From: Planctomycetota bacterium
GTDB taxonomy: Bacteria; Planctomycetota; Phycisphaerae; UBA1845; PWPN01
Direction: 5' to 3'
DNA: 11,122 bases
Assembly: GCA_016209665.1 (NCBI GenBank)
Contig: JACQVT010000692.1
Location: 1 to 11,122 of the forward strand
The notes below the pieces were generated by a model. It made no database searches and had not been told where the DNA came from. It saw nothing but the letters and a program-made list of their open reading frames with translations. Positions 4,499-11,122 of this stretch are shown in pieces; the stretch's first letter is position 1, and each line of letters begins with the position of its first letter. The position numbers and the translations under genes were made by a program.

Positions 4499-4507
4499 AA
4501 TGATATG
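4489..4507. repeat. Direct repeat ATGATATG at 11-bp period over the abiEi start
   Basis: ATGATATG occurs at 4489-4496 and again at 4500-4507, with starts 11 bp apart (about one helical turn). The copies span the proposed -10 box and the start codon. Such spacing would suit a protein binding one DNA face, so an AbiEi operator is possible. Confidence 0.5.
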
Positions 4508-5137
4508 AAATGGGAATCCCTGCTGGCCCTGCTTGGCCACGAGCCGGTCTTCTCGTCGGCGTTGATGCTGGCCGGCAACGTGTCGGTCGCTCAGGTCCGC
4601 TTGCAGTTGTCGCGCTGGGCGAAGGCCGGCCGGCTGCTTCAGCTCCGGCGTGGTGTCTATATACTGGCACCCGCGTGGCGCAAGGCGGAACCTCATCCAT
4701 TTCTGGTAGCTAATATGCTTCAGCGAGGATCATGCGTGAGTTTGCAATCCGCACTGGCGTTCCATGGGGTCATCCCCGAGCACGTGCCGGTGGTGACCAG
4801 TGTCGGGCCCGGCCGCCCGGAGACGGTGCGCAACCCACTGGGCGCCTTCCAATTCAGCCATGTGGCCCGAGGCCTGCTGTACGGCTATACCCGGCTGGAG
4901 GTTGCCCCGCGGCAGTTTGCCTTCGTGGCCTGCCCGGAGAAGGCGTTGCTGGATCTGGTTCACCTGACTCCGGGCGCGGACTCGCCTGCGTACCTTTGTG
5001 AGCTGCGGCTGCAGAACACGGACGCGATGAGTGCCCAGGTGCTGCACGAGTTGGCCGAACGCAGCGGCAGGCCCAAACTGCTCCGGGCGGCCCGGCTCGC
5101 GGGACCGCTTCTCTCCGCCGAGGGGGAGTTGTTATGA
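4505..5137 (+). CDS. abiEi: AbiEi-like antitoxin / transcriptional regulator (type IV TA)
   Basis: This 210-residue protein is the likely antitoxin of a two-gene AbiE system. In characterised systems AbiEi represses its own operon and counteracts the toxin without a stable protein complex. Residues 1-60 look like a winged-helix domain (VSVAQVRLQLSRWAKAGRLL, then a LRRGVYIL wing), the standard AbiEi N-terminus. The remainder has the family-like VSLQSALAFHG motif, a central beta-rich part and CPEKALLDLVHL near residue 140, all typical of AbiEi C-terminal domains. Its length is near the family's usual 200-280. The ATG at 4505 lacks a Shine-Dalgarno site and lies at the predicted transcription start. 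It overlaps the next gene by 4 nt (ATGA), so the pair should be co-translated. The family assignment is firm; activity is inferred. Confidence 0.85.
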   Translation: MKWESLLALLGHEPVFSSALMLAGNVSVAQVRLQLSRWAKAGRLLQLRRGVYILAPAWRKAEPHPFLVANMLQRGSCVSLQSALAFHGVIPEHVPVVTSVGPGRPETVRNPLGAFQFSHVARGLLYGYTRLEVAPRQFAFVACPEKALLDLVHLTPGADSPAYLCELRLQNTDAMSAQVLHELAERSGRPKLLRAARLAGPLLSAEGELL

Positions 5138-5937
5138 AGGAGTATCTCCGACAACTGTTGGGACAAGCCGACAATGACCTCGCCCGCGGGTGCCTGTTGC
5201 GGGAGTATCTCCAGGCCCGGATTCTCGAGTTGTTCCAGGCTCGGGGGGTATTCTTGCGATGGGCGTTTCTGGGGGGCACGGCCTTGCGCTTTCTGTACGC
5301 GATCCCCAGGTTCTCGGACGATCTGGACTTCTCGCTCATCACCCCCGGGGAGGACGCCGGTCTTAGAACGGTGCTCGCTGGCGTAAAGCGTGCGCTGGAA
5401 ATGGAAGGGTACCGAATCGAGGTCAAGGTCAGCGACCGAAAGACAGTTGCTTCCGCTTTCGTCAGATTCCCGGGGCTGCTCCACGAACTCGGGCTCTCGC
5501 CCCATGCGTCACAGGCGCTTTCGATCAAGGTGGAAGTGGATACCCGGCCGCCGTCGGGGGCAGGCATCGAGACCTCCGTGGTCCGTCGGCATGTGACTCT
5601 TCACCTATGCCACCACGACAAGGCGTCCCTGCTGGCAGGCAAACTGCATGCCGTGTTGAGTCGGCCCTGGGCCAAGGGACGAGATCTCTACGACCTCGTC
5701 TGGTACCTGGCCGATCGGACGTGGCCGGCGCCGAACTTGGAACTACTGAATGCCGCACTGGGCCAGACCGGCTGGAAAGGTCCGATCCTGACGGGAGTCA
5801 ACTGGCGCCTCGAGGTCTGGCGACGGATCGAGGCCCTGGATTGGGCCAAGGCCCGAGCCGACGTGCGGCCGTTCCTGGAACGCGAGCGGGACCTTGACCT
5901 CGTGACGGCAGACACGCTCGGCAGTCTCTTGAGCTGA
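5134..5937 (+). CDS. abiEii: AbiEii-like nucleotidyltransferase toxin (type IV TA)
   Basis: This 267-residue protein belongs to the AbiEii/AbiGii/MenT nucleotidyltransferase-like toxins. Relatives halt growth, and some mycobacterial ones transfer nucleotides to tRNA ends. Motif I is clear at residues 46-66: LGGTAL, then SDDLDF, with D63 and D65 as likely metal-binding acids. Motif II is IKVEVD at 131-136. Motif III/IV follows as K170 (LLAGKLHAVL) and KGRDLYDLVWYL at 181-192. No core motif is missing, so the toxin looks intact. Translation is well supported: AGGGGGAG at 5121-5128 is followed by 5 nt and ATG, which overlaps the antitoxin stop. The pair could act in phage defence by abortive infection or in plasmid-like stabilisation; nothing in the sequence decides between them. 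Confidence 0.88.
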   Translation: MKEYLRQLLGQADNDLARGCLLREYLQARILELFQARGVFLRWAFLGGTALRFLYAIPRFSDDLDFSLITPGEDAGLRTVLAGVKRALEMEGYRIEVKVSDRKTVASAFVRFPGLLHELGLSPHASQALSIKVEVDTRPPSGAGIETSVVRRHVTLHLCHHDKASLLAGKLHAVLSRPWAKGRDLYDLVWYLADRTWPAPNLELLNAALGQTGWKGPILTGVNWRLEVWRRIEALDWAKARADVRPFLERERDLDLVTADTLGSLLS

Positions 5938-9420: not shown

Positions 9421-9717
9421 ATGATTGCCGACGGCACACAACTCATCGGCGTGCTGCTGATCCTGGCCGGGGCGGTTGGGTATCTGACCCTCCATTACCG
9501 CCGCGTCATCAAGGGCGATGGCGGCGGATGCGGTTGCGGCTGCGGCGTGTCGGCGAAGCGGCCGCCCTCGCAGTCGGCCCCGACATCGCCGGCGCCGGCC
9601 GGCACGCAGCAGTTCCTGCCCGCCGAGAATCTCGCCGACCTGGCGGCCCGGCATCGGCAGGAACGTGATGCCGGCGGCGCGCCGGCGGCTCAAAACAACG
9701 AGTCCCCACCCCCGTGA
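9421..9717 (+). CDS. Small membrane protein with a Cys-Gly cluster
   Basis: This is a 98-residue protein of unknown function. Residues 5-24 form one membrane helix (GVLLILAGAVGYLTL), followed by a basic stretch and the cluster GGGCGCGCG at 34-42 with C37, C39 and C41. The rest is Pro/Ala-rich and probably disordered. The layout of one helix followed by a cytosolic Cys-Gly motif is reminiscent of FeoB-associated Cys-rich membrane proteins, but there is no feoAB here and the likeness is weak. Its stop overlaps the GTG start of bioF by 4 nt, so bioF translation is probably coupled to it. A metal-binding role is a guess. ATG 9421 has only a weak AGGGTG site just ahead. Confidence 0.65.
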   Translation: MIADGTQLIGVLLILAGAVGYLTLHYRRVIKGDGGGCGCGCGVSAKRPPSQSAPTSPAPAGTQQFLPAENLADLAARHRQERDAGGAPAAQNNESPPP

Positions 9718-10964
9718 CCACCGATCAGACCGCGTCCAACGAATGGCTCGACCAACTGGAAGAGTTGGACGCCCAGGGTCTGCGGCGGCGGCTGCGGCGG
9801 GTCGACTCCGCTCAGGGCGCGTACGTCACGGTCGACGGCCGGCGGATGTGCTGCTTCGCGAGCAACAACTACCTGGGCCTGGCCAACCACCCGCGGGTGG
9901 TCGCCGCCGTCCGCGACGCGGTCGAGCGGTGGGGGTGGGGGGCGGCCGCCTCGCGGCTGATCACCGGCCACATGGGTCCGCACGAGCAGCTCGAGGCCCG
10001 CCTGGCCGCGTTCAAGGGCACCCCGGCCGCCCTCGTCTGCGCGACGGGCTACCAGGCGAACCTCGCCGCTGTGCGCGGCCTGGCCGGTGTGGGCGACATG
10101 GTCATGATCGACAAGCTCGATCACGCGAGCATCGTCGATGCCGCCCGCGGCTGCGGGGCCGTCCTGCGTGTGTTCCCGCACCGCGACTACGCCAAGCTGG
10201 AGCGGATACTGAGGCGGGCCGGCGATTTCCAGCGTCGCATAATTGTCACTGATTCGCTGTTCAGCATGGACGGTGACTTCGCCGACCTGCCCCGGCTCGT
10301 CGAGCTGAAGCGCAGGTACGACGCCCTGCTGTGCATCGACGAAGCCCATGCCACCGGTGTATTCGGTGAGCACGGACGCGGAGCGGCCGAGGCGATGGGC
10401 GTCGAGCACGAAATCGACTTGGTCGTCGGCACACTGAGCAAGGCGCTGGGCGGCATCGGCGGCTTCGTCGCGGGCCGGGCCGAGATCATCGATTGGCTGA
10501 TCAACACCGCGGGGCCGTTCATCTACACGACGGCCCTGCCGCCCGCGGCCTGCGCCGCTGCGATGGCCGCCCTGGACATCGTCGAGCACGAGCCCGGGCG
10601 GCGGCAGCATCTGCTCGAACTCGCCGCGTACCTGCGGCACGAGTTGGCCGAGGTCCGCGGCCTCGACATCGCCGGTTCGACCCTTGACACGCAACGCGGC
10701 CCTGCCGCTCGGAGCCGCGAAGCGGCTGTTGCGTGTCAAGGGTCGACCAGCCAGATCGTGCCGCTGATCGTCGGCGACGCCCGTGAAGCTGTTCGCCTGG
10801 CCGACACTCTGGCCGACGAGGGCCTCCTGGCGCTGCCGATCCGTCCGCCGACCGTGCCCCGCGGCACCGCCCGCCTGCGGATCAGCCTGTGCTGCGAGCA
10901 CACGAAAGCCGACGTGGACCGACTCCTCGCCGCGGTCGATCGCCATTGGCCGCGCGCCCAATGA
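9714..10964 (+). CDS. bioF: 8-amino-7-oxononanoate synthase carrying an in-frame insertion
   Basis: This is a PLP-dependent alpha-oxoamine synthase of 416 residues. BioF condenses pimeloyl-ACP/CoA with alanine to give 8-amino-7-oxononanoate, the first committed step of biotin ring formation. Visible elements are FASNNYLGLANHP at 48-60, SRLITGHMGPHEQLE at 80-94, DHAS with H137, CIDEAHATG at 207-215, TLSKALGGIGG with the PLP lysine K243, and the C-terminal IRPPTVPRGTARLRISL. This last motif favours BioF over the related 2-amino-3-ketobutyrate ligase. Residues 324-345 (LDTQ to QGST) are foreign to the family. They come from a palindromic element; without them the protein reads GST followed by SQIVPLIVGD, as in ordinary BioF, and has the normal length near 394. 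The GTG start overlaps the upstream stop (GTGA), with no Shine-Dalgarno. No other bio gene is in view. Confidence 0.9.
   Translation: MTTDQTASNEWLDQLEELDAQGLRRRLRRVDSAQGAYVTVDGRRMCCFASNNYLGLANHPRVVAAVRDAVERWGWGAAASRLITGHMGPHEQLEARLAAFKGTPAALVCATGYQANLAAVRGLAGVGDMVMIDKLDHASIVDAARGCGAVLRVFPHRDYAKLERILRRAGDFQRRIIVTDSLFSMDGDFADLPRLVELKRRYDALLCIDEAHATGVFGEHGRGAAEAMGVEHEIDLVVGTLSKALGGIGGFVAGRAEIIDWLINTAGPFIYTTALPPAACAAAMAALDIVEHEPGRRQHLLELAAYLRHELAEVRGLDIAGSTLDTQRGPAARSREAAVACQGSTSQIVPLIVGDAREAVRLADTLADEGLLALPIRPPTVPRGTARLRISLCCEHTKADVDRLLAAVDRHWPRAQ
10677..10680. repeat. Left flanking direct repeat (TCGA, or TCGACC) of the bioF insertion
   Basis: TCGA at 10677-10680 (TCGACC through 10682) is repeated exactly 66 bp later at 10743. 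It is the likely target-site duplication. The 4-base and 6-base readings cannot be told apart because the two bases after each copy are identical. Confidence 0.75.
10681..10742. mobile_element. Palindromic insertion element within bioF (MITE/REP/RPE-like)
   Basis: A 62-bp sequence begins CCCTTGACACGCAAC and ends with its exact reverse complement (10728-10742). With the palindromic TCGA flanks, the outer stem reaches 19 perfect pairs (10677-10695 with 10728-10746). Inside lie two further perfect hairpins: GCGGC-CCT-GCCGC (10696-10708) and AGCCGC-GAA-GCGGCT (10713-10727), joined by TCGG. Only ten bases stay unpaired, giving a Y-shaped three-way junction as DNA cruciform or RNA. The element encodes no protein of its own, but it is open in the bioF frame and adds 22 codons including one flank copy. 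Loss of 66 bp restores a continuous BioF reading. It is therefore inferred to be a recent non-autonomous insertion. I do not recognise the family; transposition in trans is an inference. Confidence 0.85.
10743..10746. repeat. Right flanking direct repeat (TCGA, or TCGACC) of the bioF insertion
   Basis: This is the second copy of the flanking sequence, TCGACC through 10748. It leads straight into the conserved BioF codons for S-Q-I-V. Confidence 0.75.
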
Positions 10965-11021
10965 GGCAACCCACCGCCGCACCCCGTCAGGTAGGCTGCG
11001 TGACAGAATCGGCGGGGCATC

Positions 11022-11083
11022 TCAGAGCCCCGAGCGCAAGCGAGTGGGTCGTGTCTACCCGTCGCTGGCGCTCCGGGCTCTGA
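11022..11083. repeat. Long imperfect intergenic palindrome downstream of bioF
   Basis: The left arm (11022-11049, starting TCAGAGCCCC) pairs with the right arm (11057-11083, ending CCGGGCTCTGA) around the 7-nt loop CGTGTCT, with a few mismatches and one bulge. Matching blocks include CAGAGCCC, GAGCGC and AGCGA. It resembles dispersed palindromes that I recall from planctomycete genomes, but copy number cannot be judged here. It could also stop transcription leaving bioF, though no T-tract follows. The rest of 10965-11122 shows no gene. Confidence 0.75.
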
Positions 11084-11122
11084 AAAGCCCACGTCGGTGT
11101 CGCCGCCCAGACTGTCACGCAC

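Follow-up and report, generated by a model that had tools for sequence, protein, structure and literature searches.

The bioF gene of a planctomycete carries a 62-bp palindromic element that belongs to a multi-copy family of the same genome, and this element is very probably a non-autonomous, MITE-like mobile palindrome, tolerated inside genes when its insertion is frame-neutral and avoids stops. The window, by which the whole analysed stretch of 11,122 nucleotides is meant, is the complete contig C589 of a genome bin of 4.87 Mb in 940 contigs (77.6% complete), and the parts of the insertion are listed in Table 1.

Table 1. Parts of the insertion in bioF, with their positions in the window
Feature	Position	Strand	Basis
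bioF (8-amino-7-oxononanoate synthase) frame with the insertion	9714..10964	+	416 codons, stop-free
Left TCGA, 4-bp target duplication	10677..10680	+	sequence; boundary from comparison with other copies
62-bp palindromic element, ends CCCTTGAC / GTCAAGGG, codon phase 1	10681..10742	+	model match 81.5 bits, E 1.4e-13
Outer stem, left arm, 15 bp	10681..10695	+	sequence, fold, family covariation
Inner hairpin 1, GCGGC CCT GCCGC	10696..10708	+	fold, family covariation
Inner hairpin 2, AGCCGC GAA GCGGCT	10713..10727	+	fold, family covariation
Outer stem, right arm, 15 bp	10728..10742	+	sequence, fold, family covariation
Right TCGA, second copy of the target duplication	10743..10746	+	sequence, family direct repeats

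The element in bioF, CCCTTGACACGCAAC...GTTGCGTGTCAAGGG, has perfect arms of 15 bp (19 bp including TCGA), and its in-frame translation (10681..10742) is L-D-T-Q-R-G-P-A-A-R-S-R-E-A-A-V-A-C-Q-G. Together with one TCGA, the palindrome accounts for a surplus of 66 bases, or 22 codons. The strand over 10670-10755 folds at -60 kcal/mol (z -7.84), and none of 200 shuffles folded equally well. The frame 9714-10964 is identified as BioF by TIGR00858 (437.7 bits, cut-off 426.45), which is matched by 385 residues over 363 profile positions, a difference of 22, and the two alignments shown with solved structures leave gaps of 23 and 22 residues at the place of the insert. It is the single BioF match of its own genome at E 1e-60. 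The sequence-only reading had proposed 22 extra in-frame codons in bioF, made up of the palindrome and one copy of a duplicated target, and this is borne out by the sequence, the BioF profile and the homologs. Its proposal of a target duplication of 4 or 6 bp stands for the 4-bp TCGA and falls for the 6-bp TCGACC; other copies place the ends of the element at CCC/GGG, so that CC belongs to the conserved element end and the duplication in bioF is TCGA. In the structure predicted for BioF with the insert (mean pLDDT 66.9, 6 aligned sequences), the inserted residues 322-343 are below 50 and partly drawn as helix, and in this model the insert sits between helix 294-314 and strand 348-355, in a low-confidence stretch.

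In three host genes, homologous proteins show the insertion site to be exactly empty. Among the BioF matches outside the own genome, 11 of 18 were aligned and one of these is truncated; the 22 residues are absent from all 10 that span the site, the same-genus protein (79% identity) included. The site is spanned by 118 of the best 119 homologs from the protein database, and in 116 of these exactly 8 residues stand against the 30 of the window. The remaining two carry different inserts there, of 19 residues (P0312) and 50 residues (P0332), and this loop of BioF may be a tolerant hot spot. The insert of P0332, a protein of another genome, stands between GYNIG and SSSQIIP, has PLADRS and PDGRGSD motifs, and may itself be a translated palindromic repeat. 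Other hosts of the family agree with bioF: in a DUF1611 protein with a 72-bp copy the insert takes up 25 alignment columns, and in an MFS protein 22, and no more than 3 residues fall into these columns in any of the 119 homologs of either protein. Moreover, a nucleoside transporter with two nested copies, which was matched at all in 3 of 14 relatives, aligns in two pieces to two relatives, with 42 and 43 residues of the query left unaligned where 44 are expected. Conservation of the 22 residues in distant BioF proteins, which had been named as evidence against mobility, is thus not what is found, and an ancestral or single-copy insert is ruled out by the uninterrupted homologs and by the multi-copy family.

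That family comprises 63 full-length matches in the own genome (78% complete), as found by BLAST and by a covariance model made from 25 copies; the count is possibly a lower bound, since 150 of 8084 first-look candidates were scored. A contig-edge fragment and two outer copies, each interrupted by a nested one, come on top of the 63. Of the full rows, C287:2052 (E 0.0036) and C725 (E 0.28) score lowest, and C725 is like the family in one half only and, by eye, a half-copy. Lengths are 62-64 bp in 49 copies and 69-77 bp in 14, the longer forms having an apparent extra hairpin (by eye). In 45 of the 63 copies, CCCTTGAC stands at both ends, and the conserved ends of the family are CCCTTGAC/GTCAAGGG. 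The core of the family consists of the outer stem and two inner hairpins, and at 7 of 24 pairs among the 25 copies changes on both sides are compensatory. When the outermost 12 positions of 61 copies were compared, 63 changes were found on a single arm, 41 of them at one position that the consensus leaves unpaired, and 7 were matched on both arms; no argument for selection on arm pairing within copies is drawn. Two insertions are nested, in C835 and C631, both within open reading frames, and the contigs C703 and C811 start inside or at a copy. No Rfam model scored above its gathering score (best 24.2 bits against 80, a microRNA model), and viral contigs gave no exact pattern match to the element. 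A single-copy element, the other finding that had been said to argue against mobility, is thus excluded, and the mobility that was proposed is supported by the multi-copy, nested, empty-site and frame evidence.

A coding test was used that reads the flanks alone (at most 240 nt per side, by codon-position GC and stops) in the 63 copies, 61 of them with both flanks. Both flanks are coding on the same strand in 25 copies, one flank only in 20, neither in 12, and opposite strands in 4, while 2 were too short. The frame is kept across the element in 24 of the 25 (binomial against 1/3, p 6e-11, a value that overstates independence because the copies are related to each other). The bioF copy fell into the opposite-strands class and was counted manually as one more in-frame case. 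The exception (L027, G000:C204:729-791) seems to lie between two genes and to give the upstream frame its stop, the TGA of the element. No in-element stop occurs in any of the 24 in-frame copies, of which 14 are in phase 1, 7 in phase 0 and 3 in phase 2. A standard CCCTTGA end in that last phase would read CCT TGA, and the phase-2 copies (C287:8762, C781:3711 and the half-copy C725) all have the end CCCTTTAC, in which TGA is changed to TTA and which is absent from every other copy; in its two full copies, the change is on both arms. By a looser open-frame criterion, 33 of the 63 copies are in genes, among them C106:4116, a weak case whose period is 65. Of 30 host proteins scanned with Pfam, 9 have a match that continues through the insertion, the matched families including G6PD_C, Sulfatase, Pkinase, MFS_1, Methyltransf_11 and Nucleos_tra2_C. 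The inserted peptides vary with phase and orientation and are, by eye, rich in R, S, A and D. Insertion into genes in frame, as proposed from bioF alone, is supported by the kept frames and the missing stops.

The targets are short. Both flanks are usable in 62 copies, and 50 of these show an exact direct repeat, of 3 bp in 35 cases and of 4 bp in 15. The 4-bp repeats are CCAG or CTGG in 10 of 15 cases, and the 3-bp repeats have a G directly before or a C directly after them in 34 of 35. No exact repeat of 3-4 bp was found in the other 12 copies, including the one in the DUF1611 host (C785), and C654:6508 has a 2-bp match only. The sequence-only reading had suggested asking whether other copies lie in genes and in frame with a 4- or 6-bp duplication; they do lie in genes and in frame, and repeats of 4 bp occur, but so do repeats of 3 bp. 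The period, meaning the length of the element plus its direct repeat, is a multiple of three in 46 of the 50 copies, by six combinations (62+4, 63+3, 69+3, 72+3, 71+4 and 74+4), and the exceptions have periods of 65 (C370, C483 and C106:4116) and 68 (C277). It is divisible in 21 of 21 coding copies and in 25 of 29 copies not scored coding (Fisher p 0.13, not significant), some of the latter being in genes by the looser open-frame criterion.

In relatives, the family mostly lies outside genes. The element model matched nothing in the same-genus genome, and the end motif is no commoner there than a control. Forty relatives were searched together with the own genome, under strict filters and with 131 candidates scored in each; 14 of the 41 genomes match at E 0.001, with 42 matches in G002, where both strands of the palindrome are counted, and 1 to 11 in the other matching relatives; in a class-wide draw of 298 genomes including the own, 8 matched at 1e-6 (18 candidates scored per genome). 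While 33 of 63 copies in the own genome passed the open-frame criterion, 3 of the 41 that were read in relatives did so (Fisher p 1.7e-6); many copies of G002 and G005 share longer flanks and so are not independent. The passing copies are those of G009 (80 bp, TGGA repeat, period 84), G010:C180 (without an exact repeat) and G002:C56 (period 69). Periods in relatives, for repeats of at least 3 bp, are 65, 67, 76 and 77, and also 66, 69, 72 and 84. None of the 6 period-67 copies in relatives passes the criterion, and the frame-neutral copies there seldom pass either. G002 has subfamilies with periods of 67 and 69, both mostly outside genes, and its frame-neutral 66+3 copies are mostly intergenic, with 1 of 10 passing, so that a frame-neutral length alone does not bring the element into genes. 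In addition, scanning named genomes with a pattern brought up 23 stretches, 19 of them in records titled Phycisphaerae, Phycisphaerales or Planctomycetota and the other 4 in Nevskiales, Chloroflexi, Prevotella and Alphaproteobacteria bins, the last three being unlike the family by eye. The Nevskiales bin, which is far from the planctomycetes, has a typical 62-bp copy with CCAG repeats (L092 95-156), the result of either a transfer or a binning error. The named records with the element, together with named BioF homologs, support a planctomycete lineage of the class Phycisphaerae for the genome of the window.

These periods bear on the alternative that the length of the insertion is set by the transposition mechanism (a period of about 66, 72 or 75), the kept frame being a by-product and not a trace of selection. 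The divisible periods of most copies not scored coding are in its favour. We nevertheless regard it as unlikely, since six different combinations of length and repeat all give multiples of three, the exceptional periods of 65 and 68 exist and none of them is among the 25 strictly coding copies, the relatives show 65, 67, 76 and 77 besides the divisible lengths, and the stop-free phases are left unexplained. A second alternative, in which a Y1 (HUH) transposase spreads the palindrome as in REP/RAYT systems, would account for the hairpin structure and for the four Y1_Tnp matches of the own genome. It appears distinctly improbable: the exact short direct repeats point to staggered cuts, REP elements are typically extragenic, and the stretches read at the four Y1 loci carry no matching palindrome. 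In the transposase search, which covered DDE_Tnp_1, DDE_Tnp_1_4 and Y1_Tnp, the own genome gave no match to either DDE model, and no transposase or longer element with the family ends was found in its 78%-complete assembly. Several candidates for an autonomous relative were rejected. The unpaired ends in C43, C117, C573 and C737 belong, by eye, to no IS; a pair of ends 3064 bp apart in the relative G003 turned out to be two short copies, with no transposase by eye among its reading frames; and the long end pairs in L107 are chance by eye.

The kept frames and absent stops also weigh against the idea that the element is skipped or removed at the level of RNA or translation, by bypass between the duplicated bases or by processing of the hairpin RNA, so that the proteins would lack the peptide. 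The bypassing elements of some mitochondria are hairpins flanked by short direct repeats, and the present element is likewise a very stable hairpin between such repeats. Under bypass or removal, frame and stops would be irrelevant, yet 24 of 25 copies are in frame, the 24 are free of stops, and only copies with the TTA change occupy phase 2; we consider this explanation highly improbable. Domestication of the inserts as useful peptides or regulatory RNA hairpins, to which their presence in conserved metabolic genes might point, is scarcely credible given that unrelated genes, differing phases and both orientations yield different peptides and that the element was not found in the same-genus genome.

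We return to a MITE-like palindrome, which short duplications, inverted ends, nested copies and the lack of own genes fit as an element moved in trans. Its forms of 62-64 bp and the longer ones of 69-77 bp would insert at short GC-rich targets and duplicate 3 or 4 bp, the 4-bp targets being mostly CCAG/CTGG and the 3-bp targets lying beside a left G or a right C. The ends CCCTTGAC/GTCAAGGG would probably be recognised by a cut-and-paste transposase acting in trans. Within genes, an insertion would persist if its period is a multiple of three and its phase avoids the TGA of the CCCTTGA end. The host gene would then be translated through the element and its product gain 22 residues (24 or 25 with the longer forms); the peptides that vary with phase and orientation, and the position of the BioF insert in a low-confidence stretch between helix and strand, fit retention in genes by such translation. 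Enzyme activity would presumably be retained, and purifying selection would lie behind the frame pattern. A further idea, which we put forward tentatively and hold to be possible rather than probable, is that of a selfish element with lineages adapted to life in genes, in which each length form with its duplication makes whole codons and the TTA variant colonises the phase barred to the standard form. Since the period is divisible by three in non-coding copies too, selection at the lineage level for a whole-codon length is offered here as a hypothesis and not as a result.

Some other features of the window were noted. Just downstream of bioF, at 11015-11090, there is a second palindrome, whose 29-nt arms are 86% complementary, stand 18 nt apart and include CGAGCGCAAGCGA in one of them. 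On the minus strand, an overlapping frame reads PLACARGSE, and the palindrome possibly represents another repeat family of the own genome. A short tandem repeat, GAGAATGGAGAATG, occupies positions 1-49, and a similar repeat with inverted copies occurs around a Y1 transposase match on C623 (L181 612-697). The overlapping genes at 4505-5137 and 5134-5937 are a possible type IV toxin-antitoxin pair; the first matches an AbiEi-type antitoxin model weakly (39.3 bits, cut-off 150), and the second has no NCBIfam match and a product that looks, by a motif, nucleotidyltransferase-like.

The main known carriers of protein-coding palindromes are obligate intracellular Rickettsiales, in which different species often share the inserts. 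The planctomycete, which is presumably free-living, has dozens of copies with target duplications, nested copies and exact empty sites, and these features make the movement of the element, the tolerance of proteins and the adaptation to the frame directly testable. Furthermore, selfish peptides of recent origin can be present in the proteins predicted from such genomes. A literature search by title or start of the abstract, mostly without subscription papers, found no such elements described in planctomycetes. The coding palindromes of Nematomorpha mitochondria (PMC6649704) are similar in being inverted repeats inside translated genes, but there both arms encode conserved protein, whereas the planctomycete palindrome is an added mobile segment. 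REP elements, the GTAG- and CGTC-tagged palindromes, are likewise short hairpins in many copies (PMC3733652), and the planctomycete element differs from them by its target duplications and its intragenic, in-frame location. Closer in type are bacterial MITEs such as ERIC, the 107-bp Correia form of Neisseria and QMITE1 of Coxiella, which two papers present as small non-autonomous repeats with inverted ends and sometimes in-frame gene fusions (PMC2229807, PMC5896051). The planctomycete family has terminal inverted repeats, is short and multi-copy without an own gene, and has a narrow target duplication length (3 or 4 bp, with exact repeats in 50 of 62 copies). ERIC, Correia and QMITE1 elements are longer, about 100-400 bp, and the QMITE overlaps with functional genes that are named there lie at gene ends, whereas in 9 of 30 planctomycete hosts scanned a domain match continues on both sides of the insert.

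Closest by behaviour are the Rickettsia palindromic elements (RPEs), named as a precedent from the start; we claim a likeness in behaviour and no membership. It is borne out by the multi-copy, in-frame insertion in unrelated genes: RPEs and their Wolbachia counterparts are multi-copy palindromes in frame in unrelated conserved genes and also intergenic (PMC10969869, PMC2229807, PMC3767692), and the planctomycete palindrome lies in frame in many unrelated protein genes (24 of 25 plus bioF, with 9 of 30 spanned by Pfam matches). One guanylate kinase with an RPE insert is translated and active, the RPE target duplication is marked unknown in a table (both PMC2229807), and rickettsial orthologs carry the insert at the same locus (PMC3767692). 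RPEs are given as about 100-150 bp long, with single cases of 84-192 bp tabulated (PMC3767692), while the planctomycete element measures 62-77 bp. The planctomycete family is further unlike RPEs in being GC-rich, in its inner hairpins, clear 3-4-bp repeats, exact empty sites and nested copies, and in its occurrence in another phylum.
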